Shown here piece by piece: positions 20,521 through 47,073 of a DNA stretch of 48,828 nucleotides. The DNA lies in assembly GCF_013141825.1 (NCBI RefSeq), contig NZ_RZNH01000042.1, positions 1 to 48,828 of the forward strand, in the 5' to 3' direction. Numbering within the stretch: position 1 is the stretch's first letter; each line of letters opens with the position of its first letter. The position numbers and the translations under genes were made by a program. This stretch comes from Marinifilum caeruleilacunae (GTDB lineage Bacteria; Bacteroidota; Bacteroidia; Bacteroidales; Marinifilaceae). The notes under the pieces were generated by a model, which saw only the letters and a list, made by a program, of their open reading frames with translations, did no database searches and had not been told where the DNA came from.

Positions 20521-20620
20521 AATAAACTATTTCGTGACTTCGGGGAACTGAGTAACGAGAGTATAATTTTTTAAGAATTGTATTTTCTTATCGTCCTTCC
20601 CCACAATATTTGTGGAAGAA

Positions 20621-21802: not shown

Positions 21803-21806
21803 GAGT

Positions 21807-22862
21807 ATGATGATTTCGAATAAGGGTAAAGTTGTAACCCTGCTTTTTAGTTGCCTGGGGCTGATTATCATTGGTCTTTTATTGCTGGACCTGATCTTTG
21901 GTTCGGTGAGCATTCCTTTTGAAAAGGTATTTGCCATTCTAACGGGGAGCGAGGTAAAGACCTCCTGGAACTATATCGTACTTAACTTTAGGTTGCCAAA
22001 AGCATTGACTGCCATTTTTGTGGGTGCAGGATTATCCGTTACCGGATTAATGATGCAAACGCTTTTTCGAAATCCATTGGCAGGACCTTTCGTTTTGGGG
22101 ATTAGCTCGGGAGCAAGTTTAGGCGTTGCATTAATGGTAATGGCTTCGGCCATTGTACCCGCTTTTTTTGGTGCTGTTTCGGCAGCTCTGGGAAACTGGG
22201 CTTTGGTAGTTGCTGCGGTGGCAGGTGCATCCCTTGTTTTTTTATTGGTGGCGCTGGCATCAATTCGTATTTCCGATTCTGTATCCCTATTAATTATAGG
22301 AATCATGTTTGGAAGTATAACCGGAGCCATCGTAAATATTCTTCAATATTTTAGTGAACCAGAACAGATTCAAAGTTTCATTGTCTGGACTTTTGGATCG
22401 TTGGCAGGAGTGACCTGGATGGAAATGCAGGTAATGGGGCCTATCGTTTTATCAGGATTGATTTTATCATTTTTCCTGATTAAGCCCATGGATGCTTTGC
22501 TACTTGGAGAGAATTATGCACGTGGAGTTGGCATATCGGTAAACAGAACCAGGATAGCGGTAATTATTTGTACGGCTTTAATTGCAGGAACTTTAACCGC
22601 ATTTACTGGTCCGATAGCTTTTGTTGGAGTAGCTGTGCCGCATATTGCCCGATCCATTTTCAGAACAGCAAGCCATAAGGTCTTAATGCCTGCTGTTGTG
22701 CTTATAGGAGCAGCAATCATGCTAATATGTGATATCTTTTCTCAGTTGCCGGGAAACCAAAGTACTTTGCCAATTAATTCGGTAACAGCACTCTTTGGAG
22801 GCCCGGTTGTAATTTGGGTGATTATCAGGAGTAGAAATGTTAAAGCATCCTTTGGAGGATAG
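21807..22862 (+). CDS. btuC: Cobalamin ABC transporter permease (BtuC/FecCD family)
   Basis: 351 residues with about ten transmembrane helices. Family landmarks are FRLPKALTAIFVGAGLSVTGLMMQTLFRNPLAGPFVLGISSGASLG (periplasmic loop and helix 2-3 region), GMFGS-like helix with SVSLLIIGIMFGSITG, and GPIAFVGVAVPHIARSIF, the cytoplasmic coupling region that contacts the ATPase. It starts four nucleotides after the btuF stop and its own stop is immediately followed by the ATPase ATG, so the three genes form one tight operon under riboswitch 1. Specificity for B12 comes from the riboswitch and neighbours, not from the permease sequence itself. Confidence 0.92.
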   Translation: MMISNKGKVVTLLFSCLGLIIIGLLLLDLIFGSVSIPFEKVFAILTGSEVKTSWNYIVLNFRLPKALTAIFVGAGLSVTGLMMQTLFRNPLAGPFVLGISSGASLGVALMVMASAIVPAFFGAVSAALGNWALVVAAVAGASLVFLLVALASIRISDSVSLLIIGIMFGSITGAIVNILQYFSEPEQIQSFIVWTFGSLAGVTWMEMQVMGPIVLSGLILSFFLIKPMDALLLGENYARGVGISVNRTRIAVIICTALIAGTLTAFTGPIAFVGVAVPHIARSIFRTASHKVLMPAVVLIGAAIMLICDIFSQLPGNQSTLPINSVTALFGGPVVIWVIIRSRNVKASFGG

Positions 22863-23894
22863 ATGGTGATGAAAGAGGAAATGAATCAAAATATATTGGT
22901 TACCAAGAATTTGTCGATTGGATATAAACAATCCAAAAAGGAAGTCTTGTGTTTACTTTCTGATATTAACCTTACCATTCGAAGAGGTGAAATGGTATGT
23001 TTATTGGGGCCTAACGGGGCTGGTAAATCTACATTAATGCGTACCATTGCCGGCATACAAGCTCCATTGGCTGGTCGAACTTTGGTTGAAGATATTCCCA
23101 TTCGAGACAGAAATTTTAAGGAGATTGCCCAGCTTTTAAGTATCGTACTTACCGAACGAATTAATGTGGGGAACCTAACTGTGTATCATATCGTTTCCCT
23201 GGGACGTCATCCGTATACTTCTTGGATGGGCAAATTGTCTGATGCCGATAATGAGAAAATAAAATGGGCGCTCGAACAGGTTGGTTTGTTGCATTATGCC
23301 AATCATTTTATCAATCAGTTGAGCGATGGAGAACGTCAACGAGTAATGATTGCGAAAGCCCTGGCACAGGATACTCCTTTAATCATGCTCGATGAGCCAA
23401 CTGCACATCTTGACCTGCCAAATCGTGTAGAAATTATGCGCTTGCTTCATCGTTTGGCAAGGGAAACGAATAAAGCCATTCTGTTGTCAACCCATGAACT
23501 GGATTTGGCCTTGCAAGCTGCCGATTTAATTTGGCTGATGGCCAGAAACCAGCCCGTTAAGGTTGGCGCTCCCGAAGATTTGGTGCTGAATGGAAGCATA
23601 GAGGATACCTTTCAAAACAAATCTTTCAATTTTGATCGAAAAACCGGAAACTTCATCATGAATTATCAGAAAAAACAGATGATTCAACTCCTGGGTAATG
23701 ATGTGATGGGATTTTGGACCCAACGAGCTTTATCGCGTGAAGGTTACCAGGTAACCTGTGAAAAAGCCGGCGATTGTTGCGTGCAATTGCTGGAGGATTG
23801 TATGGAGTGGGAAGTTCACCGAAATGGTGAAGTAACCCGATGTAAAAGCATACAGTCTTTATTGAGCCATCTTAAAGAATCATTCCAGTTATAA
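22863..23894 (+). CDS. btuD: Cobalamin ABC transporter ATP-binding protein (BtuD-like) with C-terminal extension
   Basis: 343 residues, versus about 250 for a typical FecE/BtuD ATPase. All nucleotide-binding motifs are intact: Walker A GPNGAGKST (about 51-59), signature LSDGERQRV (about 154-162), Walker B LIMLDEPTAH and the H-loop LSTHE. After the ATPase core there is an extra domain of about 85 residues (from about 258), with MGFWTQRALSREGYQVTCEKAG and a cluster of Cys (DCCVQLLEDC). Similar tails occur in Bacteroidota relatives; their role is not known to me, but regulation by corrinoid or redox is conceivable. The ATG abuts the btuC stop. Confidence 0.9.
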   Translation: MVMKEEMNQNILVTKNLSIGYKQSKKEVLCLLSDINLTIRRGEMVCLLGPNGAGKSTLMRTIAGIQAPLAGRTLVEDIPIRDRNFKEIAQLLSIVLTERINVGNLTVYHIVSLGRHPYTSWMGKLSDADNEKIKWALEQVGLLHYANHFINQLSDGERQRVMIAKALAQDTPLIMLDEPTAHLDLPNRVEIMRLLHRLARETNKAILLSTHELDLALQAADLIWLMARNQPVKVGAPEDLVLNGSIEDTFQNKSFNFDRKTGNFIMNYQKKQMIQLLGNDVMGFWTQRALSREGYQVTCEKAGDCCVQLLEDCMEWEVHRNGEVTRCKSIQSLLSHLKESFQL

Positions 23895-23960
23895 TAAAAT
23901 ATTTTTTGTAAATCATTACAATAACTGTCATTTTCATGATTTCTATCGTGAAAATTTATA

Positions 23961-23968
23961 TACATTTG
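23961..23968 (+). promoter_or_regulatory. -7 element (TACATTTG) of the btuB-like gene
   Basis: TACATTTG followed by C matches the Bacteroidetes -7 element and is placed just before cobalamin riboswitch 2. I do not see a clear -33 TTG at the right distance. Confidence 0.5.
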
Positions 23969-23972
23969 CCTT

Positions 23973-24155
23973 GCATTTGGTTTTTGCTCCTCTAACAGGG
24001 GTAAAATGAAAAGGGAATTCGGTGAGAATCCGAAACTATACCCGTAGCTGTAAGTTCTAAAATCAGCTTTTTGAAATTCTCCTTGCCACTGTTCCAATAC
24101 ATCGGAATGGGAAGGCCTCAAAAAGTAGAACAAGTCAGAAGACCTGCCATTGCAT
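23973..24155 (+). promoter_or_regulatory. Cobalamin riboswitch 2 (long form)
   Basis: The conserved core is AAAAGGGAATTCGGTGAGAA, ATACCCGTAGCTGTAAG, the extra arm GCCACTGTTCC...GGAATGGGAAGG, and finally AAGTCAGAAGACCTGCC. The extra arm places it with the larger (Cbl-I/AdoCbl-type) architecture. A leader of about 170 nt without a gene lies between it and the receptor ATG at 24328, which must hold the expression platform. Confidence 0.93.
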
Positions 24156-24327
24156 TTTTTAAAAGTCATTGCTTTCGGGAAAAAGAGCAAGTGAACGGAA
24201 ATACAATCAATCATTTGTAGAAGGATGTTAATGCCATAACTGGTCCTTGGGAATGTATTGTTTATTTTTCTTGAGCTCCCTGTTTGCATGCATGAGTTAA
24301 ACTTATTTTCATTTAATTTTTTCAAAC

Positions 24328-26481
24328 ATGAAAAGAACATTTTTAACGGCTTTTGCATTGCTATCATTATTTAATTTTGCAGTTAAAGCTGATGAAATTC
24401 CAAATCCAACCGATGATAAAAAGGTTGTGAAGCATTTGAATTTGGAGGAGGTTGAAATCAATGCTTCGCGTGTAAATGTAAAAGTGAAAGATTTGCCCCA
24501 AAAAATTGAAGTCATCACAAAAAGAACCATCGAAGCTTCCCCTGCAAGCCATGTGGCTGGTTTATTAAAGAGATCTGCATCTATCGATATATTGCAGTAC
24601 CCAGGAGTTTCTGCAGTAGTTAGTATGCGTGGTTTTACACCATCGCCGAGTGTAAAATATACAGTGATTTTGGTTGATGGAAAACCTTCAGGTACTGATA
24701 ATATCGCCAGTATAAACTTGCAGAATGTTGAGCGAGTTGAGATTTTAAAAGGTCCATTTTCTGCCCAATATGGATCAGCTGCCATGGCCGGAGTGGTCAA
24801 TATTGTAACAAAAAATAGCACGGGAAAAATTGGTGGCCGTGTTGATGTTGAATATGGCAGCTTTCAGACTTCAAACTTAAATTTAGCTACTGGTGGATCG
24901 ATTTCTGAAGAGTTGGATTTTGACTTTGGTTTTTCTTATAAAAATCAGGCAAAAGACTATAAAACGGGTGATAAAAATTTATATGATGAAAGCTATGCAA
25001 AATCGATACTAGATGAAAGCAGCTATGGAGAGCGAATGGAAAATACACAATTCACAACCTACAATCTGAATGGTCGACTTGGTGTCAAAATCGCCAAGGA
25101 TTGGAAAATTAACCTGAACGGTACGTACTATAAAGGCGATGATATTGAAACACCAGGTAATTTTTGGCATACCGAAGGAATGGATTCTAAGGATATTGAA
25201 CGTTATTCTGCCGGAATTGATGTGTTAGGAAAAATTAAAAATCATCAACTTACATTTTCGCCTTACTACTCAAATGAGGAGAATAAAACTTTTGACGTAG
25301 GATCGGATGGTTATGGAGACTTTGAAAGCATTTATAAGAATTATGGTTTTCAGTTGTTGGATTCATATCAATTCGGAAGTCACAATCTTGGTTTGGGAAT
25401 GGATCATAAAACGGAAGAATATGAAAGCACAAATTTTGCACCCAATGGTGATGTAGAGGCTCCATATCAGCCAGATTATAAGAATATTGCAACAGGGATG
25501 TTTGCGCAATTGCAATTTAAGCTTGTTGATGATCGATTAAACCTGATGCTTGGCGCAAGGGGAGATCATATCAAATTTAAACTGGAGGCCGACAATTTGC
25601 TGGGAAATGATAAAAGCAGCGAAGACTATTGGGAGTTTACTGGTAATTTTGGTGTGAAATACGAAATATGGGAAGGTTTATCGGCTCACACCAGCTATGG
25701 GAATGCATTTTTAGCACCAAAAGCTTACCAGGTTGCAGGTAAATATACCAGGGGAACTTCTACTACAGTTGGGAATCCAGAACTTGAACCTGAAACCTCT
25801 AAAACAGTTGATTTTGGATTGGCCTATAACAGTTACCAGAAGGGAATAGCTGTAGATCTAACTTATTTTAATACCCATCATAAGGACAAAATCATTAGAA
25901 CTTATTTGCCTGATTACAGCACCACATATACCAATGCGCATAGTGCTGATATGGATGGATTGGAAGTAACTGCTTCTTATGATTTTGGAGCTTTAAAGCA
26001 ATATGACTATTCTCTTCGTTTGTATTTGAACTACACGCATTTGTTTGATGCTAAAGTGAAATATGAAGATGCCTTGGGTAATAAGCTGGAAGGAGAAATG
26101 AGATTTGTACGTAACAATACTGCCTCATTTGGAATTGAATACGATAACCTGAAAGGATTCTCTACAAAATTAAACGGTAGATATATTGGCCACAGATATG
26201 AAAACAATTACATGTACCTGGCTGATTATTCGAACTGGCCCGATATCACCAAAGAGCCAATTGTATATCAGGGAAAAGAAGTACGTCCTAAATTGGTAAA
26301 CGAAGAGTTGCTGTATCATCCGATATCATATGTATTTGATTATTCGGCTAGCTATACTTTTAAAGAGCATTATACACTTGGAATAAGCATTGCCAATTTG
26401 CTGAACGAAAACTACACAGAAAAGGATGGCTACAATATGCCGGGTAGAAGCATTATGGCAAAATTTTCATATCAGTTTTAG
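24328..26481 (+). CDS. btuB: TonB-dependent vitamin B12 receptor (BtuB-like)
   Basis: 717 residues with a signal peptide (about 1-21). The plug domain starts with a TonB-box-like VEINASRV segment and continues with LKRSASIDILQYPGVSAVVSMRGFTP, VILVDGKPSG and VEILKGPFSAQYGSAAMAGVVNIVTK, all standard for TonB-dependent receptors. The barrel has typical strand pairs such as AHTSYGNAFLAPKAYQVAG and NPELEPETSKTVDFGL, and ends in the aromatic SYQF. Cobalamin riboswitch 2 upstream fixes the substrate class as corrinoid. It is transcribed alone, with a strong terminator after it. Confidence 0.9.
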   Translation: MKRTFLTAFALLSLFNFAVKADEIPNPTDDKKVVKHLNLEEVEINASRVNVKVKDLPQKIEVITKRTIEASPASHVAGLLKRSASIDILQYPGVSAVVSMRGFTPSPSVKYTVILVDGKPSGTDNIASINLQNVERVEILKGPFSAQYGSAAMAGVVNIVTKNSTGKIGGRVDVEYGSFQTSNLNLATGGSISEELDFDFGFSYKNQAKDYKTGDKNLYDESYAKSILDESSYGERMENTQFTTYNLNGRLGVKIAKDWKINLNGTYYKGDDIETPGNFWHTEGMDSKDIERYSAGIDVLGKIKNHQLTFSPYYSNEENKTFDVGSDGYGDFESIYKNYGFQLLDSYQFGSHNLGLGMDHKTEEYESTNFAPNGDVEAPYQPDYKNIATGMFAQLQFKLVDDRLNLMLGARGDHIKFKLEADNLLGNDKSSEDYWEFTGNFGVKYEIWEGLSAHTSYGNAFLAPKAYQVAGKYTRGTSTTVGNPELEPETSKTVDFGLAYNSYQKGIAVDLTYFNTHHKDKIIRTYLPDYSTTYTNAHSADMDGLEVTASYDFGALKQYDYSLRLYLNYTHLFDAKVKYEDALGNKLEGEMRFVRNNTASFGIEYDNLKGFSTKLNGRYIGHRYENNYMYLADYSNWPDITKEPIVYQGKEVRPKLVNEELLYHPISYVFDYSASYTFKEHYTLGISIANLLNENYTEKDGYNMPGRSIMAKFSYQF

Positions 26482-26503
26482 TTTGGATATTTTTTAATAG
26501 AAA

Positions 26504-26540
26504 AAGGGGAGGTCTTAAGGTGAAGGCTTCCCCTTAATTA
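26504..26540 (+). terminator. Terminator after the btuB-like gene
   Basis: A 13-bp stem (26504-26516 with 26523-26535, two G-U pairs) has a 6-nt loop, with a T/A-rich tail. It lies between the receptor stop and the third riboswitch. Confidence 0.7.
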
Positions 26541-26621
26541 TTAATAAATGTATTGTTAACACCTGATATACAGCATGTTTTTTAAATTGATTTAATTAGT
26601 GGATTTATTGGTCTTTTTTTT

Positions 26622-26629
26622 TACATTTG
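26622..26629 (+). promoter_or_regulatory. -7 element (TACATTTG) of the second receptor operon
   Basis: TACATTTGC precedes cobalamin riboswitch 3 by a few nucleotides. The same octamer in the same place occurs before riboswitch 2. Confidence 0.5.
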
Positions 26630-26635
26630 CAGCGC

Positions 26636-26815
26636 AATTGGTTCTCAAATATTTGAATTTTTTCAAATGGAGATGAAAAGGGAATCCGGTTAAAATCCGG
26701 AGCTGTTCCCGTAGCTGTAAGTTCTATTAATGCTTTTATTCCACTATGCCACTGTTCCAATATCGGAATGGGAAGGCCGATAAAAGTTGAACAAGCCAGA
26801 AGACCTGCCAGTTAG
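26636..26815 (+). promoter_or_regulatory. Cobalamin riboswitch 3 (long form)
   Basis: The conserved core is GAAAAGGGAATCCGG, TTCCCGTAGCTGTAAG, the extra arm GCCACTGTTCC...GGAATGGGAAGG, and AGAAGACCTGCC. It resembles riboswitch 2 closely, including the variable arm, so the two probably arose by duplication. Controls the TonB receptor and BtuG-like gene. Confidence 0.93.
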
Positions 26816-26914
26816 CATTTGATTTTCAAAACATTCGGTGAAGGTGTTTGGAAAATGATGGTTGCCTTTAACTATTGTTATCCTTTCGTGTTCCCTGCTA
26901 TATCAATTGGTAAG

Positions 26915-28786
26915 ATGAAGTGGAGTTTATTTTTTTTCTTAATTTTCTTGAGTGTTAATATCCAGGCTCAAAACATTGGTAAGGATACTGTGCAATTAAA
27001 TACGATTGATATTGTTGCACCCAGACTCAAACATTTTTCTTCAACCGAGAAAAAGATTAAAGTTGATTCTATTATCCTACAAAAGTACGAAGGCAAAGAT
27101 TTGGCAGGGATATTACAAAAAGTTTCATTATTAAATGTTTCTTCTAATGGTTCTCAAGGAGCTCTATCCACGGTTAGCATTCGGGGAGCTTCTGCAACTC
27201 ATACATCGGTAAATTGGAACGGAGTACCGGTAAATTCACTTACAACAGGATCGGCCGATTTGTCTTTGATTGGAGCTGGTAGTTTTGACGATGTGCAAAT
27301 AGTTTATGGAGCGGTTGGTTCACTCTATGGAAGTGGAACAATGGGAGGAGCTATTGAATTGTCCAATACTCCAAATTGGAAAGATGAATCGTCGCTTGGT
27401 TTACAATCGGAATTTGGAAGTTTTTCGAATTACAAAACAAAATTGTACGGAAAGTATTCAAATAATTGGATTTCTTATACTGCACAGGCCTTTTTTCAAT
27501 ATGGTAAAAATGATTTTACTTATACAGATAAATATGATTTTGGATCTCCGACTGAACGTTTGACTCATAATGAAAACAGGGCATACGGAACCATTCATGA
27601 TTTACATTTTAAATTTGATAAGCACTTTATTGATTTGGGTGCATGGTACCAGGCAAAGAAAAAGAATATTGCTGGCATAATGGGAATTGGTGAACCAAGA
27701 AGCAGTCAGCAACAAAGAGACTCTTCCCTCAAGGTATATTTGGGTTGGAAGACTCTAGTCGGAAAATTTCGTGTGGAGCTAAAATCAGCATATTTATACG
27801 ATTACCTGAAGTATACCAATGGCTATTTGTCTGAAATATCTTCGGAAAGGATATTGAACGATGCAAACATACGCTATTACCATAATTCAAAGTTTAGTTT
27901 GGATATAAACGCCAAATATTCCTGGTTGAAAGGCCAAACCAACAATTATGAGAAAGAGGAGTATGAATCCAGAATAACGCTTGCCGGAAAATATACACCA
28001 AAATTCGGAACATTCATTATTACGATTGGCAAAGAGTGGAATACGGAGATCAATCCACCTGAAATGTATTCCTTTAGTAGTTTGTGGAATGTGATTCCTA
28101 AATTTTTGGATGTTAGAGCAAAATGGGGAACTCATTTTCGTAGACCTACTTTTAACGAAAGGTATTGGCAGCCAGGAGGTAATGAGGAAATAAAAGCAGA
28201 GGAAGGTTGGAATGCTGAGTTGGGATTGACTATATTATCCCTAGTAAGCAATTTTGGAAAAATTAGCACAGATGTAGCTGTCTACCAGTCCAAGAACAAG
28301 AATGCCATTTCGTGGCAACCAACAGGCTCACATTGGAGCCCCTTAAATACAGGGCAGATGATAAGTAAGGGATTGGAGATGGAAGTAAAGCATTCGTTAG
28401 CTGTTGGAAGTAAAAAATATATGCAAACCATGTTTAAGTATGCCTATAACGACGCCTATAATAATGATAAATCTAGTGCGGATTATAAGCAAACCATAGC
28501 CTATCGCCCTCACCATATCACTAAAATTTTGAATGATTTTATATCAGAGAAATGGAATGCTGGTGTTATTGCAACCTTCAGATCAAATACTAAAAACTGG
28601 GAAGAACAAAAAGTTGATGGAAATTTTCTACTTGATGTGAATGGAGGATATCAGTTTAAAACAGAGTATGCAAAGTTTAGTTTAACAGGTAGGATTGAGA
28701 ATATTTTAGATAAATCGTATGAGCTGGTTAAGTATTACCCCATGCCGGGCCGAGCTTATTATTTAGGGGTGAATGTAATTTTTTAA
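26915..28786 (+). CDS. TonB-dependent receptor, cobalamin-riboswitch controlled
   Basis: 623 residues from the ATG at 26915, which starts a proper signal peptide (MKWSLFFFLIFLSVNIQAQ). The frame is open upstream to 26819, but that part overlaps the riboswitch and lacks signal features. Plug landmarks are LNTIDIVAPRL (TonB-box region), LQKVSLLNVSSNGSQGALSTVSIRG, VNWNGVPVNSL and VQIVYGAVGSLYGSGTMGGAIELS. The barrel includes WGTHFRRPTFNERYWQPGGNEE and ends with GVNVIF. It is shorter than the BtuB-like protein and only distantly related. It likely imports a different corrinoid or a precursor. The surface lipoprotein gene follows after 13 nt and is co-transcribed. Confidence 0.88.
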   Translation: MKWSLFFFLIFLSVNIQAQNIGKDTVQLNTIDIVAPRLKHFSSTEKKIKVDSIILQKYEGKDLAGILQKVSLLNVSSNGSQGALSTVSIRGASATHTSVNWNGVPVNSLTTGSADLSLIGAGSFDDVQIVYGAVGSLYGSGTMGGAIELSNTPNWKDESSLGLQSEFGSFSNYKTKLYGKYSNNWISYTAQAFFQYGKNDFTYTDKYDFGSPTERLTHNENRAYGTIHDLHFKFDKHFIDLGAWYQAKKKNIAGIMGIGEPRSSQQQRDSSLKVYLGWKTLVGKFRVELKSAYLYDYLKYTNGYLSEISSERILNDANIRYYHNSKFSLDINAKYSWLKGQTNNYEKEEYESRITLAGKYTPKFGTFIITIGKEWNTEINPPEMYSFSSLWNVIPKFLDVRAKWGTHFRRPTFNERYWQPGGNEEIKAEEGWNAELGLTILSLVSNFGKISTDVAVYQSKNKNAISWQPTGSHWSPLNTGQMISKGLEMEVKHSLAVGSKKYMQTMFKYAYNDAYNNDKSSADYKQTIAYRPHHITKILNDFISEKWNAGVIATFRSNTKNWEEQKVDGNFLLDVNGGYQFKTEYAKFSLTGRIENILDKSYELVKYYPMPGRAYYLGVNVIF

Positions 28787-28799
28787 TACAATCATAATC

Positions 28800-30200
28800 A
28801 TGAAAAAGTTTTTAAAATTTAGCCTGGGCTTGCTAATAGCAAGTGCTTTATTCGTTTCTTGTACAGACGACGATGATAATGCAATGCCAACATTGTCTGT
28901 AAACAAAGGTGTTGTTATTGAAAATGGTGCAAGCATAACAATTACTCCTTCAGAATTGGCTGTAGTTGATACGGATACGGAAGATGTAAATATTATTTAC
29001 ACTGTGACTACTGCAACCGAAAATGGTATTCTTGCCAATGCAGATGACCTTTCAACAGCTATTGATCAATTTACTCAAGCTGATGTGGCAGCTTCAAAAG
29101 TTGTGTACGTTCATAACGGAAGCCAAACCTTAACCGATGAGTTTTCATTTAAAGTTACCGATGGAGATAACGAACTTACAGGTACTTTTAATATTAGCAT
29201 TGGTGAAAAACAGATCAGCTTTTTCTATATTTTGAACGAGGGGAGTTCTAATGGTAGTTTAAGTATGATCAACAGAAATGATGAGGTGACTAATAATTAC
29301 TTCTCGACTGCAAATAATGGCGTTGCATTGGGACAGTACCCTCAATCTATGGCTGTAAATGATGATTATGCTTTTATTGTTGTAACTACAGCAAGCGGTG
29401 CAGGTTATGTTGAGGTTGCAAATAAAATTGATTTTACCCATAATGCAACAATAGATGGTTTCTCTTATCCTCGAGAAATTACCTTAGCTGGCGATAAAGC
29501 GTATGTTTCTAATGGAAATGGTCAGGATGCAAACTATGCAAAGGAAAACAACGAAATTTATATTATTGACCTAAATACTATGACAAAAACAGGAGAGATT
29601 GCAGTTGGTGCCGGTCCTGAAAAAATGGTAGTATCGAATGGTAAATTATATGTTGCTAATAGTGGTGGTTGGTCTAACGATGATAATACAGTATCAGTTA
29701 TCGATATTGAGTCTGATCAGGTTTTAGAAACCATTACTGTGAAATCTTGCCCTAAAGATATGGTTGTTGATGCTAATGGCGACATTTGGGTGTATTGTTC
29801 AGGTGTTCCAGATTATTCTAACTGGCCAAATGTAACTTATACCAATTCTGGAATTTCTGTAATAACTGAATCAACCAGTGCAGTAACCTCATATGATTTG
29901 ACGAACCTTTCGACAAGTGGGATCAAAAATATTGCAATAAACAAGGCGAAAGATGTTGTTTACTTCATGTCGGATGCAGTTTATGCAATGAATATATCTG
30001 ATACGGCATTGCCAACAATTAAACTTATTGATACTACATTCTATGGTATGGATGTAAATCCTGTAAGTGATAACTTATGGTTGTGCGAAGCAATAGATGC
30101 TACAACTCCAGGTACCGTTCATGTTTACAATAGTGAAGGTGCAGAACTGAAAAGTTTTACCGTTGGTACTATGCCGAACTCGACTACTTTTAGCTATTAG
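28800..30200 (+). CDS. Surface beta-propeller lipoprotein, BtuG-like
   Basis: 466 residues. The lipobox LFVSC is followed by TDDDDN, an acidic signal used in Bacteroidota for lipoprotein export to the cell surface. Residues about 30-132 form a cadherin/CSPG-like Ig-type domain (ELAVVDTDTEDVNIIYTV...DEFSFKVTDGDNELTGTFNISI). Residues about 138-466 form a YncE-type propeller with repeated blades (GPEKMVVSNGKLYVANSGG, CPKDMVVDANGDIWVYCSG). In Bacteroides, BtuG is a surface propeller lipoprotein that binds B12 very tightly and hands it to BtuB. The fold, lipidation, receptor partner and riboswitch all agree with that role here. The N-terminal Ig-like domain is, as far as I recall, absent from the characterised BtuG, so the name is a prediction. 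Confidence 0.75.
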   Translation: MKKFLKFSLGLLIASALFVSCTDDDDNAMPTLSVNKGVVIENGASITITPSELAVVDTDTEDVNIIYTVTTATENGILANADDLSTAIDQFTQADVAASKVVYVHNGSQTLTDEFSFKVTDGDNELTGTFNISIGEKQISFFYILNEGSSNGSLSMINRNDEVTNNYFSTANNGVALGQYPQSMAVNDDYAFIVVTTASGAGYVEVANKIDFTHNATIDGFSYPREITLAGDKAYVSNGNGQDANYAKENNEIYIIDLNTMTKTGEIAVGAGPEKMVVSNGKLYVANSGGWSNDDNTVSVIDIESDQVLETITVKSCPKDMVVDANGDIWVYCSGVPDYSNWPNVTYTNSGISVITESTSAVTSYDLTNLSTSGIKNIAINKAKDVVYFMSDAVYAMNISDTALPTIKLIDTTFYGMDVNPVSDNLWLCEAIDATTPGTVHVYNSEGAELKSFTVGTMPNSTTFSY

Positions 30201-36050: not shown

Positions 36051-37244
36051 TTACCACATCAAAGGCTGATATATTGCAGCTAAAATAAATGCCACAACCG
36101 ACAAAATCAGTCCATACATAAATATGGTATAGGAAATTCTCAAAAAGCGGTATTTTTTACCCAAAACCTTACCCAGGTAATACTGATCTTTAATCAGACT
36201 ATCGTAAAGCTCATCGTAATCTGTCATCATCCCTTTTAATGCTTTTGAATATATACCCAAATCCATATTGTGGAAATTCCCAAAGAATAATAGATTCACT
36301 CTTTTTTGCTTCACATCTTCTTCCGAAAATTTCCCATCGGTTACAATAGGGCGTGTTGCCATTACCGAATAGGTGATGGTAACCAAACACACAATCAGCA
36401 AAATTATACATGGAATAATGAAGTGTGGAACCTCCATAATATTCTTGAAAATGAAAAAGATAGCCGAGATAATGATCGAGTTGACAGAAATCATTAAGTT
36501 GGCTTTGCTATCGGCAATCGAACTCAAATTGATCTGGTTTCTTGCCGTTACCTTAAACATGGTCTCGATTCCTCTCTGAGGCATTTTTAACTTGATGTTC
36601 TGACTCTCAAGCTTACTTACTTTTTCATTCAGTTTCTTGATTTCCTTATCGTGATAGCCCTTTATTTTTGCGACTACTTTCTGGTAGTTTACTTCTTTCT
36701 TCTTTCCAAATACCTTTTTTCCATATTTGGTTTTGTATTTGTGATTTTGCAAAAAGGCTAATGTATCCTCCCAATATAGTCTTGGCGGTATTTCACGCTT
36801 GTAAAGCGCCTCTTTTTCTTCGCGAAGTTGCTCAGAGCTTTTCATGTAGCTTTTCGATGCCAGGTGGTATAAATCGGCATCGCAAAGGGCATTGCAAACC
36901 GGGTTTTCGCAAGGTGGATGAGGAATTTTTGTATGTAGAATGGCTTGTGTTACCTGTGTAATTTTCTCTTCCGGATAATTTCTCTCCGCTAAAAATACCC
37001 TTGCATTTCGAGCGCTCAACTCTTCATGATTTGCATAATCTTCGTAATATCCCGAATCGTGGAACCAGGCGGCCAGAATTAAAATCTCCATCTGTTCTTC
37101 ACTGAATTCCAGTGCAGCACCAATCTTATTGGCATGTTTTACTACATTCTGGGTATGTTCTAAATTGTGATAGGTATACAATGGTTTTATTGCATCTTCA
37201 ATAAGCTTAGTAACATATTTTTCAGCTTCCTGGATCATATTCAT
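36051..37244 (-). CDS. HD-domain protein with Pycsar-effector-like (PycTM, DUF5706) C-terminus
   Basis: 397 residues. The N-terminal part (about 20-140) is an HD phosphohydrolase: H30 in YHNLEHTQNVV, the H62-D63 pair in WFHDSGYY, a further His near 104 and D122 in CDADLYHL, so all metal ligands seem intact. A Lys/Glu-rich coiled coil (about 195-220) links it to a membrane domain that starts with RNQINLSSIADSKANLMISVNSIIISAIF (positions about 235-263) and has further helices at about 275-295 and 370-392. This second part matches the Pycsar effector family (DUF5706), whose TM members respond to cyclic UMP or cyclic CMP made by PycC cyclases in phage defence. No pyrimidine cyclase gene is present nearby, so the protein may use the domain for another nucleotide signal, with the HD domain degrading it. 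It is the first gene of a probable operon with rsmE. Confidence 0.82.
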   Translation of the reverse strand: MNMIQEAEKYVTKLIEDAIKPLYTYHNLEHTQNVVKHANKIGAALEFSEEQMEILILAAWFHDSGYYEDYANHEELSARNARVFLAERNYPEEKITQVTQAILHTKIPHPPCENPVCNALCDADLYHLASKSYMKSSEQLREEKEALYKREIPPRLYWEDTLAFLQNHKYKTKYGKKVFGKKKEVNYQKVVAKIKGYHDKEIKKLNEKVSKLESQNIKLKMPQRGIETMFKVTARNQINLSSIADSKANLMISVNSIIISAIFFIFKNIMEVPHFIIPCIILLIVCLVTITYSVMATRPIVTDGKFSEEDVKQKRVNLLFFGNFHNMDLGIYSKALKGMMTDYDELYDSLIKDQYYLGKVLGKKYRFLRISYTIFMYGLILSVVAFILAAIYQPLMW

Positions 37245-37415: not shown

Positions 37416-38348
37416 ATGATTAAAGTAATTCATACACTGATTAGTATTCTTGCTATTGTATTTTTTCTCGAAGCTTGCGCCCAAAAAAAGGAGCAGAAAA
37501 TGATCTATTTGTCGGAGAACTACGAGAAATTCCCATATGATATTTATGAGCCGAATAAGAAGTTCGAAATGAAGGATGAGTTGAGAGAGATATCGGCTTT
37601 GACTTATTATAGCGAGAATTCTGTATTGTGTGTGAACGACGAAAAAGGTGTCATCTACAAATACAATCACAAAAAGAAAGAGGTAACTAAAAAATACGAA
37701 TTCGATCACCCTGGAGATTATGAAGGCATTGAGCTGATAGATTCTATTGTTTATGTGCTTCGTTCGGATGGGAAAGTGTTTAAAGTGGAAAACTTTAAGG
37801 ATAAAAAGAAGATCAATTCGGTAAAAAGATCAACTCACTTAAATGCGGGGAATGATACAGAAGGATTGGGTTACGATCCCAATACAAATGCATTATTGGT
37901 AGCCTGTAAAGGAAGCCCTGCCCACTCTAAAAAATACCATGGCAAACGTGCTATTTATGAATTTTCTATCGAAAAAAATGAATTGTCAAAAACGCCTAAA
38001 TATTTGATCGATCAGGATCAGATCCGAAAGATTTTGGAATTTGATGCCTACTCCAGATTTTCGGTCCAATTAATGGAGAATATCAATCCTTCGCAAGGTG
38101 ATATTACTTTTCAACCTTCGGCAGTGGCTGTTCATCCCATTACAAAAAATCTTTATGTGCTGGGGTCGGTGGGAAAAATATTGGTTGTGTTAAATCCAGC
38201 AGGAGAAATTCAGGCCATTGTTAAACTAAAGCGCAAAATTTTCCGCCAACCAGAAGGCATATGCTTTGCGCCCGATGGAACCATGTATATCTCCAACGAA
38301 GGAAGAGGGCAAAAAGCAAACATTTTAAAATATCGATTTAAACAATAA
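37416..38348 (+). CDS. SdiA-regulated-like beta-propeller lipoprotein
   Basis: 310 residues. The signal peptide ends in the lipobox LEAC (Cys at about residue 21), followed by AQKKEQK. The mature part is a beta-propeller of the SdiA-regulated family: ELREISALTYYSENSVLCVNDEKGVIYKYN, HPGDYEGIELIDSIVYVLRSDGKVF, ntEGLGYDPNTNALLVACKG, FQPSAVAVHPITKNLYVLGS and FRQPEGICFAPDGTMYISNEGRG. Such proteins often sit beside phosphatase-like or phytase-like genes; the function is not known. It is directly followed, after 41 nt, by the large phosphoesterase-like outer-membrane protein, probably in one operon. Confidence 0.82.
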   Translation: MIKVIHTLISILAIVFFLEACAQKKEQKMIYLSENYEKFPYDIYEPNKKFEMKDELREISALTYYSENSVLCVNDEKGVIYKYNHKKKEVTKKYEFDHPGDYEGIELIDSIVYVLRSDGKVFKVENFKDKKKINSVKRSTHLNAGNDTEGLGYDPNTNALLVACKGSPAHSKKYHGKRAIYEFSIEKNELSKTPKYLIDQDQIRKILEFDAYSRFSVQLMENINPSQGDITFQPSAVAVHPITKNLYVLGSVGKILVVLNPAGEIQAIVKLKRKIFRQPEGICFAPDGTMYISNEGRGQKANILKYRFKQ

Positions 38349-38389: not shown

Positions 38390-41300
38390 ATGAAAAAATT
38401 CTATACACTTCTTTGTCTGTTAAGTGTGGTACTTTGTGCCAATGCTCAAGACAATCAAATCAATAAGGCGCCCAATGCAAATTTGTTGGAGCATTCGCTA
38501 TTCTTTATCGGAGATGTTGGAGAAGCCAATATTGTTGATGCCAATCTGGAAATGCTTCAGAATCAACTCATGCAAGTAGAGGACAAAGCCACTCTTGTAT
38601 TTTTGGGGAACAGCATTTCGAAAGAGTATGCCAAACAGGAAATTGAAGACATTAGTTCGGGTGATCAGAATCTGATAAAGCTATTGGATTTGGTGAAAAA
38701 ATTCAATGGTGAAAGTTTTTTCATCCCTGGCGAAAAAGAGTGGAACCAAGGACATAAGCATGGTTGGGAAGCCATTATGAATCTGGAAACCTTTATAGAA
38801 GATTATGTAGGAAAAGGCGATGTATTCCTGCCTACAGGTGGATGTCCTGGGCCAGTAGAAATTGAAATAGGCGATGATGTAGTTTTGCTCATTGTCGACT
38901 CTCAGTGGTGGCTTCATGCAGCCGATAAACCTGAGGCCGAATGTGGTCTTGAAAGTTCTACCGACTTTCTCATTCTTTTAAGCGATGCCTTAAAAAGAAA
39001 TAAGGATAAAAAGATTGTATTTGCCAGTCACCATCCGATGTATAGTGCAGGAAAACATGGAGGGAATTTTCCATTTATCGGTCCTATTGAATTGTATCGC
39101 AAGCTGTTTGGAACGCCACAGGATTTTGCCTATCCATTCTACAAACAAATGAGGTATATGGGCAGAAAACTGGGAAGAGGCTATGAAAACATTATTACTG
39201 TTTCGGCTCACGATAATAGCCTTCAGTTTACCGAAAAAGATGAATCCTTTTATGTTGTTTCCGGATCGGGAAGTAAGGCCGAATATGTTTCGGAGAAGAA
39301 AATGGATGTGGCACTTCGTGAAATTGGTTTTACCAGGCTTAATTTTTATTCGAACGATGAGGTTTGGTTGGAAATGTGGTCGGTTGGAAGAAGTGGAGCA
39401 GAGGCGCCAAAACTTGCCTTCCAGAAAAAGCTCTTCACCAAAACAATGCCTAGTGCACAAGATCTGGCTGAAAAATACAAAGATTTAAACTTTTCAGATA
39501 GTACCATAACAATAGCTGCCAGCGATTTATATGCTACCGATAGTAAATCGAAACGAAATCTGCTTGGAAACAATTACCGTAAAGAATGGGAAACACCTGT
39601 TGAGGTTCCTGTATTTGATATCGGTACAGAAAAAGGAGGTTTAAAAATTTTGAAACGAGGTGGTGGACAGCAAACACGATCTCTGCGATTGGAAGCGAAA
39701 GATGGCAAGCAGTATGTGTTAAGATCGGTAGAAAAATATACCGAGAAGGCCATACCTCCAGGATTAAGAGGGACTTTTGCTGCAAGTATTGTTCAGGATG
39801 GAATTTCTTACTCTTATCCATATGCTGCAATAGCAGTACCAAAATTGGCCGATGCTGCAGGCGTATATCATACCAACCCTAAAATTGTATATGTGCCCGA
39901 TGATCCTCGATTTGGAATCTACCAGGACGACTTCAAGAACGAACTCTACCTTTTTGAAGAAAGACCCAACGATGATATGTCTGATATGGACAATTTTGGC
40001 AACACGAAAGATGTTTTGGGAACCGATAAACTAATTGAGAAAAGATTTAAGAATTCAGATTTAGTGATTGATGAAACGGCTGTTTTACGTGCCCGACTTT
40101 TCGATATTTTCCTGAATGACTGGGATAGGCATGATGATCAGTGGAGATGGGCAACATTTAAAAAGGATGGGAAAACCATTGCCAAGCCAATTCCGCGCGA
40201 TCGCGACCAGGTATTCTTTTACAGCGATGGGAAGGTGCCTTGGCTAATCAGAAGAAAATGGGCCATGCCTAAATTCCAGAGTTTCGATTCCATTGTAGAA
40301 AATGTTGTTGGGCTAGGTTTCAACGCAAGGTATTTCGATCGCAATTTCCTTCAATCTAAAAACAAGAAAGACTGGATTGCAATGGCAAAAGAACTGAAAC
40401 AAAACCTTAGCGATGAGGTGATTGAAACAGCCATTAAAGACCTTCCAAAAGAGGTATATTCCATTTCGGCCAATGATATTGTTGCAAAACTAAAGGCCAG
40501 AAGAGATCAGTTGCCTGATTTGGCAGTAGAATTTTACGATTACCTGGCCAAAGAGGTTGATATTGTTGGTACCAATGATACGGAAGATTTTGATGCCGAA
40601 TGGGATGAGCAAGGAAACCTGCACGTGAAGGTGCGCAGACTGAGTAAGAAAGGAAACAAGAAAGAAAAACTATATGATCGTAAATTCCTGGTTGGAGAAA
40701 CTAAAGAAGTTCGGATTTATGGACTGGGTGGTAAGGATGAATTTGATATCGATGGTAAATACTCGAAAGGTGTGAAACTTAGAATTGTTGGGGGAACCGG
40801 TAAAGACAGGTTTAGAATCGATAGTACCCGAAAATCAAATCTTGCGATTTACGATAAGTCGAAAACAAAGGTGAAAGGTAATGGAGCTTTTCAAAATCGA
40901 TTATCGAAAAACAAGAGTGTGAATGTTTACGATAGAAAATCGTTTAAATATGATATTGTTAGTCCGGGAGCCAATCTAAATTTTGTGAGTGATGATGGAT
41001 TAACGCTTGGCGCTGGCTTTAACGTGAAAAAACAGAGCTTTAGAAAAGAGCCTTACGGATCCTTACACAAATTCCTGGTGAACTATGCCTTTATGTATCC
41101 ATCGGCCCAGTTTAAGTATTCTGGTGAAATGATTGGAGTATTCTCATCATTGGATTTACTGGCCAATATCAGTTACAATACGCCGAATTTTCAGGGTTAT
41201 TATTACGGGCTTGGAAATGAAACCGAAAACCCGGAGTTGGATGATAAAGAGTACAATAGAATTCGAATGGGAAGAACTGAGTTTGGCTTGCAGGTAAGAA

Positions 41301-42004
41301 AAAAACTATCGGCCAAGCAGAGTATTTCTTTCGGTCCATTCTACGAGCAGTTAGAACTTAAAGCAACTCCCGATCGATTTGTAACCGACTTTAGTAATCC
41401 GGATAACGATTTAGATTTACTTACTGATTTTAATACCAGAAAATACATTGGTTTAAAAATTAAACATGAGTGGGATACACGCGATAATAAAGTGATTCCA
41501 TCGCGTGGGGTATACTGGACCAATTCATGGAGTTTCTATCGAGGGTTGGAAAAGAACGATCATAATTTCCAAAAAATGGAAACAGATTTAAGGTTTTATG
41601 CGAGTCTTGGTAGACCTCAACGTAGTATATTTGCAATTCGATTTGGGGCAGCTCACAATACCAGTGGTTACTCCTTTTACCAGGCCAATAAATTGGGTTT
41701 AAAATCGAACCTTAGAGGATACCGTCAGGATCGATTTGCGGGTGATGATATTGTATATCAGAATACCGATTTTCGATTTAGACTGGCAAGATTTAAATCG
41801 TATTTCCTTGGTGGAGAGCTGGGGGTTTTGGCCTTTAACGATTTTGGTCGTGTTTGGCTCAATGGCGAAGATTCCAATAAATGGCACCATGGGTACGGTG
41901 GAGGTTTTTGGCTATCGCCGTATAAATTAATGGTGCTGACTGCCAATTTTGGAATGTCGGAAGAAGAGAATATTTTCTCTTTAGAGTTTAAGTATATGTT
42001 TTAA
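38390..42004 (+). CDS. Large outer-membrane protein: degenerate phosphoesterase-like + kinase-like + surface-antigen (D15-like) barrel
   Basis: 1204 residues from the ATG at 38390; a TTG seven codons earlier is open but the ATG starts the signal peptide (MKKFYTLLCLLSVVLCANAQ). Part 1 (about 30-330) follows the calcineurin-type metallophosphatase scheme, but key metal ligands are changed: GDVGE is kept, while the usual GDN is GNS (about 73), GNHDW is GEKEW (about 114), and GHxH is AHDN; only the H of ASHHPMY remains. Part 2 (about 415-620) has a Gly-rich loop (GGGQQTRS), VLRSVEK, NDWDRHDDQW (576-585) and PRDRDQ (602-607), spaced like the catalytic and metal loops of HipA/FAM20-like kinases. 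Part 3 (about 850-1204) is an outer-membrane barrel of surface-antigen type ending in FKYMF. I do not know the function. Proteins of this architecture recur in Bacteroidota as far as I recall. It probably forms an operon with the preceding propeller lipoprotein. Confidence 0.75.
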   Translation: MKKFYTLLCLLSVVLCANAQDNQINKAPNANLLEHSLFFIGDVGEANIVDANLEMLQNQLMQVEDKATLVFLGNSISKEYAKQEIEDISSGDQNLIKLLDLVKKFNGESFFIPGEKEWNQGHKHGWEAIMNLETFIEDYVGKGDVFLPTGGCPGPVEIEIGDDVVLLIVDSQWWLHAADKPEAECGLESSTDFLILLSDALKRNKDKKIVFASHHPMYSAGKHGGNFPFIGPIELYRKLFGTPQDFAYPFYKQMRYMGRKLGRGYENIITVSAHDNSLQFTEKDESFYVVSGSGSKAEYVSEKKMDVALREIGFTRLNFYSNDEVWLEMWSVGRSGAEAPKLAFQKKLFTKTMPSAQDLAEKYKDLNFSDSTITIAASDLYATDSKSKRNLLGNNYRKEWETPVEVPVFDIGTEKGGLKILKRGGGQQTRSLRLEAKDGKQYVLRSVEKYTEKAIPPGLRGTFAASIVQDGISYSYPYAAIAVPKLADAAGVYHTNPKIVYVPDDPRFGIYQDDFKNELYLFEERPNDDMSDMDNFGNTKDVLGTDKLIEKRFKNSDLVIDETAVLRARLFDIFLNDWDRHDDQWRWATFKKDGKTIAKPIPRDRDQVFFYSDGKVPWLIRRKWAMPKFQSFDSIVENVVGLGFNARYFDRNFLQSKNKKDWIAMAKELKQNLSDEVIETAIKDLPKEVYSISANDIVAKLKARRDQLPDLAVEFYDYLAKEVDIVGTNDTEDFDAEWDEQGNLHVKVRRLSKKGNKKEKLYDRKFLVGETKEVRIYGLGGKDEFDIDGKYSKGVKLRIVGGTGKDRFRIDSTRKSNLAIYDKSKTKVKGNGAFQNRLSKNKSVNVYDRKSFKYDIVSPGANLNFVSDDGLTLGAGFNVKKQSFRKEPYGSLHKFLVNYAFMYPSAQFKYSGEMIGVFSSLDLLANISYNTPNFQGYYYGLGNETENPELDDKEYNRIRMGRTEFGLQVRKKLSAKQSISFGPFYEQLELKATPDRFVTDFSNPDNDLDLLTDFNTRKYIGLKIKHEWDTRDNKVIPSRGVYWTNSWSFYRGLEKNDHNFQKMETDLRFYASLGRPQRSIFAIRFGAAHNTSGYSFYQANKLGLKSNLRGYRQDRFAGDDIVYQNTDFRFRLARFKSYFLGGELGVLAFNDFGRVWLNGEDSNKWHHGYGGGFWLSPYKLMVLTANFGMSEEENIFSLEFKYMF

Positions 42005-44436: not shown

Positions 44437-44937
44437 TTACTGTTTGTATTTTTTAGGAAATTCGTACAAACAAATCTTGCCCGATCTGGCTTCAATGTCT
44501 TTCCAGTCGCTTACGTCAAACTCGATTCCAATAACCGTGCAAGTAGGAACGTATTCATAAAATTCAACACTTAAATTAAAGGCCAGGTATTCAATGCTTG
44601 GGTTGTGACCAAAAATCATCACCGAATCATTATTGTTTCCATGCTGGTCGAGCATGCCCAAAAATTCATGGGTGGTGAATCCATCATAGAGTTCATCTAA
44701 CTGGACAATTGATTCTTGTTTGTACTCCAGGATATCAGCAAACAAACGAGCCGTTTGAATGGCTCTGTTTGCAGTGCTTGAAATCATAATATCTGGTTTG
44801 GCATCTTTTAACAGCAACTTTTTAGCAATCAAATTTGAATCGTTAATGCCTCTTTCTTTCAAATTTCTTTGAAAGTCGGTAATATCGTAACGAATTACCT
44901 CTGTTTTAGCGTGTCTGACTAAAAATAAACGTTTCAT
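44437..44937 (-). CDS. sixA: SixA-like phosphohistidine phosphatase (histidine phosphatase family)
   Basis: 166 residues, a single domain. The N-terminal LFLVRHAKTE carries the RH-x catalytic His (near residue 8). ISSTANRAIQTARLFADIL and MIFGHNPSIEYLAF carry the second Arg and the second His of the phosphoglycerate-mutase fold. SixA removes phosphate from His on HPt domains or related proteins. The gene lies 33 nt downstream of polyphosphate kinase and is convergent with topB, whose stop is only 18 nt away. Pairing with ppk is common in Bacteroidota and may mean that SixA acts in phosphate signalling or on a phosphohistidine intermediate. Confidence 0.88.
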   Translation of the reverse strand: MKRLFLVRHAKTEVIRYDITDFQRNLKERGINDSNLIAKKLLLKDAKPDIMISSTANRAIQTARLFADILEYKQESIVQLDELYDGFTTHEFLGMLDQHGNNNDSVMIFGHNPSIEYLAFNLSVEFYEYVPTCTVIGIEFDVSDWKDIEARSGKICLYEFPKKYKQ

Positions 44938-44970: not shown

Positions 44971-47073
44971 TTATTCTTCTATTGTTATTTTTTCTTTATG
45001 AGCTTTTTCTTTCTCTTTTAAGAAATCCATAATGGCCATTTGAGAACGCACTTCTGGTTCTCCTTCCTTTCTTTCGATAGGAACATTATCAAGTTTTCCG
45101 TTTAATATTCGGGCACTTACATTGTCGGCAAGCTGAAGCTGTAGGATGTGGATAATTTCATTTTTGATATCCACATCATGAATTGGGAATGCACATTCAA
45201 TTCTTCTTTGAAGATTTCGGTTCATCCAATCGGCCGAAGAAAGGTAAAGCAATTCCTCTCCCTGGTTGTAAAAATAGAATGCCCTGGCATGTTCCAGGAA
45301 CTGATCAACAATTCGAATAATACGAATGTTTTTCGAATACTTCTGATCTGGCTTTAAACAGCAAATACCACGAACAATTAAGTCGATTTCCACCCCATTT
45401 TCACTGGCTTCATATAACTTTTTAATCATTTCGCGCTCTTGTAAGCCATTCATTTTAAGTAGGATGTAGCCTTTTTTTCCATTTTTTACATTCTCAATTT
45501 CCTGATCAATCAGGCGAATCAACTCGCTCTTTAAATTGAATTGGCCAACTAACAGTTTGTTGAACTCATATCCAGGAGTTTTATTTTCCAGGTAATCGAA
45601 GAGTTGCTTCATTTCCTGTATCATCACTTTATCGGATGTCAGGAATCCATGATCGGCATATATTTTGGCTGTTTTTTCGTTAAAATTGCCTGTGCTTAAA
45701 AATGCGTAATCTCTTTTGTCATCCTTACGGATTACCAGGGCAATTTTCGCATGCACTTTTAATCCAGGAATACTATAGATAATTTTAATTCCGGCTTTGC
45801 GCATTTCACGCGCCGAGCGCAGGTTTGCTTCTTCGTCGAAACGAGCTTTTACCTCAACAAAAACAGTCACTTTTTTCCCATTATGAGCGGCATTGATCAG
45901 GGCATTTACAACGGCAGAATTATCAGCCACTCGATACTGAGTAGCCTTAATTTCTTCCACCTTAGGGTCTAGCGCTGCCTCGTTTAGGAAACGGATAACA
46001 TATTTGTACGATTGATAAGGGAAGTGCAAAATGCGATCTTTCTTGCGAATGGTTTTAAAGATTGATTTTGTTCCTCCTTTCAATTCCTCTATGCTTAAGG
46101 GATGATAGGGTTCCAGCTCCAGATCAGGAAATTTTGGATTCGGAAAACCAAAGAAATCCTGGAAATTGTGATATCGGCCACCTTTTACCATATCGTTTGG
46201 CAATAAATCAAAGGAATCCTTCAGGAATCGAAGAAATTCTTTTGGAATCGATTCATCGTAAAGGAAACGGGAAGGAGAGCCGGTTTCGCGTTTTTTCAGG
46301 CTTCGTTCAATCATGTCAATCAAATCACCCGAATACTCATCTTCGATTAATAAATCGGCATCGCGACTCAATTTAAAACTGAAACTTGAAGCTATCTTAT
46401 AACCCGGGAATAGCACCTTCATTCTTAGCTTCACGATATCGTCGAGGAACATGATATAATGTTTGCCATCAACTTCCGGAAGTTCTATAAATCTTGGGAA
46501 GTGATGACATGGAACTTTAATGATTGCGTAACGTGCCCTCTGATTTTTAGGGCTTGAATCTCCATCTTTTTTACTTCGGCGCTTAAATAGTTTTACCGCC
46601 AAATAGATGGAGTTGTTCTGCAAAAATGGTTTGATTTGCTGTTTTAAAAGCAGCATGGGTTGTGCATGCGGAAGAATATTCTCCAAAAAGAAATCTTTCA
46701 CATACTGATGATGCTCATCGCTTAATGCTTCATCCTGAAGCAATATGATATTGTTTTCGCGAAGTTGCGGGATAATACTATCTCGAAATATCTTTCCAAA
46801 TTCAACCTGCTGACGATCTACCTCAGCATTAATTTTTTTCAGAATGTTATCAGGATTCTCTCTTAGGTTTTTCTTGTCTTCGGGAGGTAATTCTGTAAAT
46901 CTTTTATAGGTGCCAACACGTACACGATAGAATTCATCAAGGTTAGATGAATAAATTGCGAGGAACTTAATTCGTTCGTACAGAGGCAAATCTTCATTGG
47001 TTGCCACTTCCAACACCCTTTTGTTGAAAGATAACCAACTTAAATCTCGGTTAAGGAATTGATATTTTGACAT
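44971..47073 (-). CDS. ppk1: Polyphosphate kinase 1
   Basis: 700 residues, the usual length. The N-terminal domain opens with FLNRDLSWLSFNKRVLE. The head domain is followed by two phospholipase-D-like catalytic domains: GLKVHAKIALVIRKDD has the autophosphorylated His (near 430), LSTGNFNEKTAKIYADHGFLT comes next, and VDQFLEHARAFYFYN and LSSADWMNRNLQRRIECAFP form the second active-site half. It makes polyphosphate from ATP reversibly. The start is ATG at 47073 with about 260 bases of AT-rich sequence upstream in which I find no pho-box-like repeat. Confidence 0.96.
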   Translation of the reverse strand: MSKYQFLNRDLSWLSFNKRVLEVATNEDLPLYERIKFLAIYSSNLDEFYRVRVGTYKRFTELPPEDKKNLRENPDNILKKINAEVDRQQVEFGKIFRDSIIPQLRENNIILLQDEALSDEHHQYVKDFFLENILPHAQPMLLLKQQIKPFLQNNSIYLAVKLFKRRSKKDGDSSPKNQRARYAIIKVPCHHFPRFIELPEVDGKHYIMFLDDIVKLRMKVLFPGYKIASSFSFKLSRDADLLIEDEYSGDLIDMIERSLKKRETGSPSRFLYDESIPKEFLRFLKDSFDLLPNDMVKGGRYHNFQDFFGFPNPKFPDLELEPYHPLSIEELKGGTKSIFKTIRKKDRILHFPYQSYKYVIRFLNEAALDPKVEEIKATQYRVADNSAVVNALINAAHNGKKVTVFVEVKARFDEEANLRSAREMRKAGIKIIYSIPGLKVHAKIALVIRKDDKRDYAFLSTGNFNEKTAKIYADHGFLTSDKVMIQEMKQLFDYLENKTPGYEFNKLLVGQFNLKSELIRLIDQEIENVKNGKKGYILLKMNGLQEREMIKKLYEASENGVEIDLIVRGICCLKPDQKYSKNIRIIRIVDQFLEHARAFYFYNQGEELLYLSSADWMNRNLQRRIECAFPIHDVDIKNEIIHILQLQLADNVSARILNGKLDNVPIERKEGEPEVRSQMAIMDFLKEKEKAHKEKITIEE

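Follow-up and report, generated by a model that had tools for sequence, protein, structure and literature searches.

The window analysed here is a 48,828-nucleotide stretch of the Marinifilum caeruleilacunae genome (contig NZ_RZNH01000042.1, positions 1 to 48,828 of the forward strand). It carries a gene for a large envelope protein in which a metallophosphoesterase-type domain, a candidate kinase-like centre and an Omp85 barrel follow one another. The gene and its modules are laid out as follows.

38390..42004, + strand: whole three-module gene, 1204 aa (ATG at 38390, stop at 42004)
38390..38449, + strand: apparent signal peptide, residues 1-20, assigned by eye
38480..39424, + strand: metallophosphoesterase-type domain, residues 31-345, with ligand motifs degenerate in the Marinifilum/Labilibaculum clade
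39527..40549, + strand: kinase-like domain, residues 380-720 (boundaries set by us), without a convincing sequence match in Pfam, NCBIfam or the PDB
39659..39673, + strand: core of the Gly-rich loop, GGGQQ, residues 424-428
39716..39736, + strand: VLRSVEK, residues 443-449, with R445 and K449 conserved
39956..39958, + strand: E523, a conserved Glu that may act as the helix-C Glu
40118..40144, + strand: DWDRHDDQW, residues 577-585, catalytic-loop-like, holding D579
40193..40207, + strand: PRDRD, residues 602-606, with D606 and D604 resembling metal-binding Asp residues
40550..40939, + strand: stretch that looks beta-rich and holds a GGxGxD-like motif, residues 721-850
40940..42001, + strand: Omp85 superfamily barrel, residues 851-1204, with LRGY at 1108-1111

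A first-pass annotation, made from the DNA letters alone, had listed a Gly-rich loop and a set of motifs in this protein, and each is present exactly once: GNS (73-75), GEKEW (114-118), AHDN (273-276), the loop core GGGQQ (424-428), VLRSVEK (443-449), NDWDRHDDQW (576-585) and PRDRDQ (602-607). The stretch at residues 721-850 is the fastest-evolving part in two of four comparisons with relatives (L011 and L005).

Flanking modules and family distribution

The C-terminal module, first described as a D15-like barrel, matches the Pfam Omp85 superfamily (PF01103) with 50 bits (cut-off 24; E 4e-13) over residues 919-1168, and the only NCBIfam match of the protein is to an Omp85 family, below its cut-off. 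The motif [LV]RG[YF], which we take to be of the Omp85 loop-6 type, lies within the last 330 residues in 82 of the 98 family members longer than 780 aa. When the window protein was scanned with Pfam, no POTRA family came up at E<=1; Omp85 subfamilies of non-POTRA architecture have been described (PMC4104836).

At the other end, Pfam Metallophos (PF00149) covers residues 38-225 at a sub-threshold score (E 0.0089; 16.9 bits against a curated cut-off of 21.5). The five metal-ligand motifs of PF00149 were scored in 57 three-module proteins, six further proteins above 1000 aa not being scored. All five are present in none of the 15 Marinifilum and Labilibaculum copies, the window's included. Of 42 distant proteins, which were identified through their similarity to the window domain, 35 keep them all (38 when stretches absent from the alignment are not counted). 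The early description of a dead phosphoesterase thus holds for the window clade and fails for the family, which is typically a fusion of kinase-like and phosphatase domains on one barrel. In four comparisons, with synonymous sites mostly saturated, pN/pS ranged over 0.10-0.23 in the phosphoesterase, 0.08-0.16 in the kinase-like part and 0.06-0.24 in the barrel. The degenerate phosphoesterase is still constrained and therefore probably kept for binding or structure.

The three-module family is real and widespread in Bacteroidota. A match to any part of the whole protein (E<=1e-10) was found in 159 of 395 Bacteroidota genomes, and a match to the centre profile (E<=0.001) in 22 of 247 genomes from the class to which the window belongs, the window's own being counted in both; at E<=10 that genome shows no copy besides this one. 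Close relatives, 70-89% identical, number 14 and come from Marinifilum, Labilibaculum and one Marinifilaceae metagenome-assembled genome. By length alone, 107 members divide into 63 of three-module size (>1000 aa), 35 of centre-barrel size (780-1000 aa) and nine below 650 aa. Several of the nine carry what looks by eye like a signal peptide or lipobox; another feature of this group is that L188, at 400 aa, falls short of the centre profile's length and may be a fragment. At L045 (4746-8792) and L046 (2512-6467) the centre, the metallophosphoesterase (here over the PF00149 cut-off; E 2.3e-8 and 1.6e-6) and the Omp85 barrel (E 7.7e-13 and 2e-11) are each encoded by a gene of their own, one directly after another. 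Fused in most members and encoded by separate neighbouring genes in these two, the three parts thus behave as one unit. Beside the split genes of L045 lie ABC transporter and ABC-2 permease genes, an outer-membrane efflux gene and mgtE. Scans of viral contigs with the centre and with a 41-row centre set confirmed no relative, and phage records gave no match at E<=1e-3.

Part of this architecture has been published. Heinz and Lithgow described in 2014 an Omp85 'Metallo' subfamily, in which a PF00149 domain, termed a metalloprotease there, is joined to an Omp85 barrel in a non-POTRA architecture (PMC4104836). The phosphatase-Omp85 fusion resembles this subfamily, which is likely the same set as the present family. 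The first-pass annotation knew of no described system with a kinase-like domain joined to an outer-membrane barrel; the metallophosphoesterase-Omp85 part had been described, though, in a paper whose main text never uses the word 'kinase' (PMC4104836). Unlike the published architecture, the present one has a third, kinase-like domain between the two, its phosphoesterase is degenerate in the window protein, and its shorter members have no phosphoesterase. In open-licence PMC, searched for kinase-like domains with Omp85 and for CotH relatives in Bacteroidetes, none of the matches listed describes this family in its title or the start of its abstract. A metallophosphoesterase of Riemerella anatipestifer (Niu et al. 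2021) was considered as a member and rejected, as a review lists it as a type IX secretion effector (PMC10202324), which does not fit with an Omp85 barrel.

Conservation and loss of the kinase-like site

Database searches place the centre in no kinase family. In the window protein it has no Pfam match at E<=1 and no NCBIfam match, and against the PDB it gave one weak match each by sequence and by profile (E about 0.2). For the centres of 41 relatives, picked by us from those found, Pfam returned only scattered chance-level matches (best E 0.0098); a DUF4032 match of one member (E 0.094) was likewise judged to be chance. PF08757 (CotH) was matched by none of the 41 at E<=1, and its curated Pfam score was not reached.

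Conservation within the family shows that the motifs do not arise by chance. In an alignment of 54 rows (from 67, close copies left out), R445 is retained in 53, K449 in 51, E523 in 53, D572 in 54, D579 in 52, D604 in 52 and D606 in 51. Among 92 non-redundant Bacteroidota centres, taken from 108 rows after removal at 85% identity, 80 keep all seven residues. Aligning many relatives had been proposed as a check on the motifs, and their residues turn out to be conserved. Such conservation suggests that the centre could add phosphate to a cell-envelope target.

The remaining 12 rows show how the set is lost. Four lose a single residue (E523V once; D579 to Gly or Ser three times), L165 loses two, and seven lose three or more: the second copy in L057, the first copy in L060, L064, L164, L173, L189 and L190. 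In these seven degenerate copies the Gly-rich loop, the basic pair, the Asp-Arg-His of the catalytic loop and the second Asp are largely lost together; E523 (kept in 3/7) and D604 (4/7) are less often lost. Seven further positions near the site, which had not been used in choosing the degenerate copies (G424, G425, Q428, R580, H581, Q584, R605), are kept in only 9 of 49 cells. At 27 other positions of similar conservation 154 of 189 cells are kept, and D470, R569, D572, G614, P686, R704, T771 and D783 are retained in all seven copies. A set-wise loss of site residues with other positions mostly kept is as expected of pseudokinases.

The failure of Pfam, NCBIfam and PDB sequence searches to find a kinase family would suit a centre that has no kinase fold at all and is instead a metal-dependent envelope hydrolase or binding domain, its Asp-rich motifs kinase-like by convergence. 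We regard this as quite unlikely given the order of Gly-rich loop, basic pair, Glu, DWDRH and PRDRD, the set-wise loss and the profile match to CotH above the controls run (below). The persistence of the seven degenerate copies could in turn indicate a domain that in practice performs no catalysis and works as a lid or sensor in Omp85 assembly or transport. That role is quite unlikely for a family in which 80 of 92 centres keep all seven residues, since a scaffold would not need them.

Some altered copies stand next to intact ones. In L057 and L060 a degenerate copy lies beside an intact copy, and L186 (5126-10151) and L187 (5433-8778) hold three and two adjoining centre-only genes, respectively; one copy per locus has D579 changed to Ser and adjoins copies intact at all seven positions. 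These four loci are reminiscent of the Fam20A-Fam20C pseudokinase-kinase pair (PMC4421857), in which an altered copy likewise accompanies an intact one. The degenerate copy of L173 (5881-8340), of centre-barrel size and annotated as a hypothetical protein, is borne on a Parabacteroides distasonis plasmid; L189 and L190 are similar.

Comparison with known kinase families

Profiles for CotH (28 of 30 loci) and HipA (18 of 20) were built from Bacteroidota genomes, with three CotH added for a larger comparison; those for APH and SelO kept 22 of 25 and 9 of 9 loci. The centre scored 32.2 against CotH, a value reached by none of 150 column shuffles (mean 15.9, standard deviation 2.2, maximum 22.8). 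In the larger set the centre-CotH score of 33.8 was the best of 45 profile pairs, with CotH-HipA next at 29.4 and the best pair without a kinase-fold link at 24.0, and none of 60 block shuffles reached it (mean 16.9, standard deviation 3.1, maximum 28.7). CotH-SelO scored 30.8. HipA (HipA_C, PF07804) scored 19.1 against the centre, which is not significant relative to shuffles (mean 15.95, standard deviation 3.0, maximum 28.4). FAM20C was over the cut-off in none of 99 Bacteroidota genomes, with weaker matches at E<=1 in 16, and hence no FAM20C profile was compared. The HipA/FAM20-like kinase fold first proposed for the centre therefore shifts towards CotH, a family that the first-pass annotation had named for a fold search, while the HipA part of the proposal is not borne out by a match above chance. 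The general order of motifs is nonetheless one that the centre presumably shares with HipA and FAM20C kinases.

In the profile alignments the WD motif of CotH falls under DWDRH of the centre and its DxD under PRDRD, placing the catalytic-loop Asp and the DxD in register. In contrast, the N-lobe motifs differ, being GGGxQT and RSxxK in the centre and RGNTS and KKSFK in CotH. The characterised CotH is a spore-coat protein kinase, unlike the barrel-fused centre, and the Bacillus subtilis enzyme is inactivated by published changes at Asp228 and Asp251 (PMC7821199).

Several points weigh against a kinase. The hhalign probability of the centre-CotH match, 10-28%, is weak in absolute terms and makes the match a pointer to CotH, not proof; the pairwise E-values of hhalign do not come from a database search, and the block-shuffle maximum is close to the CotH-HipA score. 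The centre lacks a profile match to HipA (20.1 in the larger set), SelO (16.3) or APH (16.1), although these non-matches say little either way because the method is of limited sensitivity and fails to recover established pairs of kinase-fold families as well (CotH-APH 15.6, HipA-SelO 20.2, HipA-APH 14.8). Seven positions drawn at random from the 34 tested in the degenerate copies do as badly as the near-site group in a fraction of 2e-5 (50,000 draws), a value that is only descriptive because the group was formed after the retention counts had been seen and three of the seven copies, by residue pattern, are apparently one clade. Either R445 or K449 could be the usual beta-3 Lys, and the four members without a single one of the key residues, D579 in three of them, are otherwise ordinary. 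Finally, the periplasm is not known to contain ATP, which leaves the phosphate donor unexplained.

Taken together, conservation lends the kinase-like reading good support and profile comparison moderate support, and we infer a kinase fold for the centre. Probably, it is a divergent, CotH-related catalytic domain of protein-kinase-like type, exported, held at the outer membrane by the barrel and mostly, among three-module relatives, paired with a metallophosphoesterase that looks intact.

Gene neighbourhood and possible role in the envelope

The three-module gene lies among conserved neighbours.

36051..37244, - strand: HD domain and PycTM membrane protein
37416..38348, + strand: SdiA-regulated-like propeller protein, 41 bases upstream in the same orientation, apparently with a lipobox
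44437..44937, - strand: histidine phosphatase superfamily protein, presumably SixA-like
44971..47073, - strand: polyphosphate kinase (Ppk1)

Neighbours were counted over 15 close, 28 distant three-module and 28 distant centre-barrel loci, with fetched flanks of about 4-7 kb, less at contig ends, so that misses may be edge effects. A propeller gene of the same orientation directly precedes the family gene in 15/15, 10/28 and 12/28 of these loci, respectively. Nearby are also ppk1 (15/15, 4/28 and 11/28), the HD-PycTM gene (14/15, 24/28 and 11/28) and the histidine phosphatase gene (15/15, 0/28 and 9/28). The HD-PycTM protein, of Pycsar-effector type, is the commonest counted neighbour at distant three-module loci. 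A CotH-cluster gene occurs in three centre-barrel loci; in L153 (7425-10385) phosphate-porin-like, CotH and PAP2 phosphatase genes stand in a row beside the centre-barrel gene, and the same three clusters recur in L154 and L156. Single loci add an APP1 phosphatase (L186) and an undecaprenyl-diphosphate phosphatase (L175). These genes may reflect a phosphate theme, one that singles out no substrate.

Two further observations concern the surroundings. An 808-aa protein (L135:4557-6980), which has no Pfam match at E<=0.01 or NCBIfam match at E<=0.001, belongs to a cluster that recurs close to the family at 11 of the 28 distant three-module loci. In the window itself, 20612-30200 holds in a row a periplasmic binding protein, a B12/iron-type ABC permease and ATPase, two TonB receptor-like proteins and a propeller-repeat protein, an apparent uptake cluster, perhaps for a corrinoid or siderophore.

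The proximity of ppk1, together with the ATP that is not expected in the periplasm, speaks for a kinase-like fold with other chemistry, such as nucleotidyl or glutamyl transfer or the use of a non-ATP donor like polyphosphate. SelO, which has a kinase fold, transfers nucleotidyl groups, and SidJ, described as a kinase-fold protein with glutamyl transfer, likewise shows that other activities exist. Ppk1 is cytoplasmic, however, and its gene's proximity is thus no proof of the donor. With no SelO profile match (16.3) and the nearest match, CotH, being a protein kinase (PMC7821199), we consider other chemistry unlikely.

A comparable enzyme is PlpD, a patatin-Omp85 fusion that presumably has a POTRA of its own. 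Its soluble enzyme domain precedes the Omp85 barrel as in the present family, but it is patatin-like, and PlpD has no kinase-like or phosphatase domain (PMC11116518). PlpD was once thought to be a working translocon, and the same was considered for the 'Metallo' group (PMC4104836); here the Omp85 part would carry both soluble domains to the cell surface in an autotransporter-like manner, with the chemistry taking place outside the cell. Such export is unlikely, as later work located the passenger of PlpD solely in the periplasm (PMC11116518), and the several separate centre proteins with an apparent signal or lipobox of their own need no translocon to reach that compartment. By analogy, the kinase-like domain most likely faces the periplasm.

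If the centre is a CotH-related kinase, the signal peptide would export the protein and the barrel would hold the kinase-like domain at the outer membrane. The donor phosphates may be held by the Gly-rich loop with R445 and K449, D579 would serve as the catalytic-loop Asp, and metal would be bound by Q584 and D606, with D604. In most three-module relatives one molecule might then both add and remove phosphate on an envelope substrate, be it protein, lipid or glycan. The window-clade copy would be a one-way transferase, because its phosphatase site is degenerate and its kinase-like site intact, with the N-terminal domain used for binding or scaffolding. More tentatively, and with considerable doubt, one may read the family as a kinase-phosphatase switch within one outer-membrane protein, in which a CotH-like kinase and a metallophosphoesterase on an Omp85 barrel would set the phosphorylation of a Bacteroidota envelope protein or lipid, drawing not on cytosolic ATP but on another donor (polyphosphate may be one, as ppk1 lies in the neighbourhood) and with inactive copies as regulatory partners.

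We know of little phosphorylation outside the cytoplasm in Gram-negative bacteria. Should the centre be a kinase, a widespread Bacteroidota family would place a kinase, often together with an opposing phosphatase, at the outer membrane, and the question would arise which phosphate donor works there. The 'Metallo' Omp85 group would additionally gain an alternative to proteolysis, the chemistry originally suggested for it.

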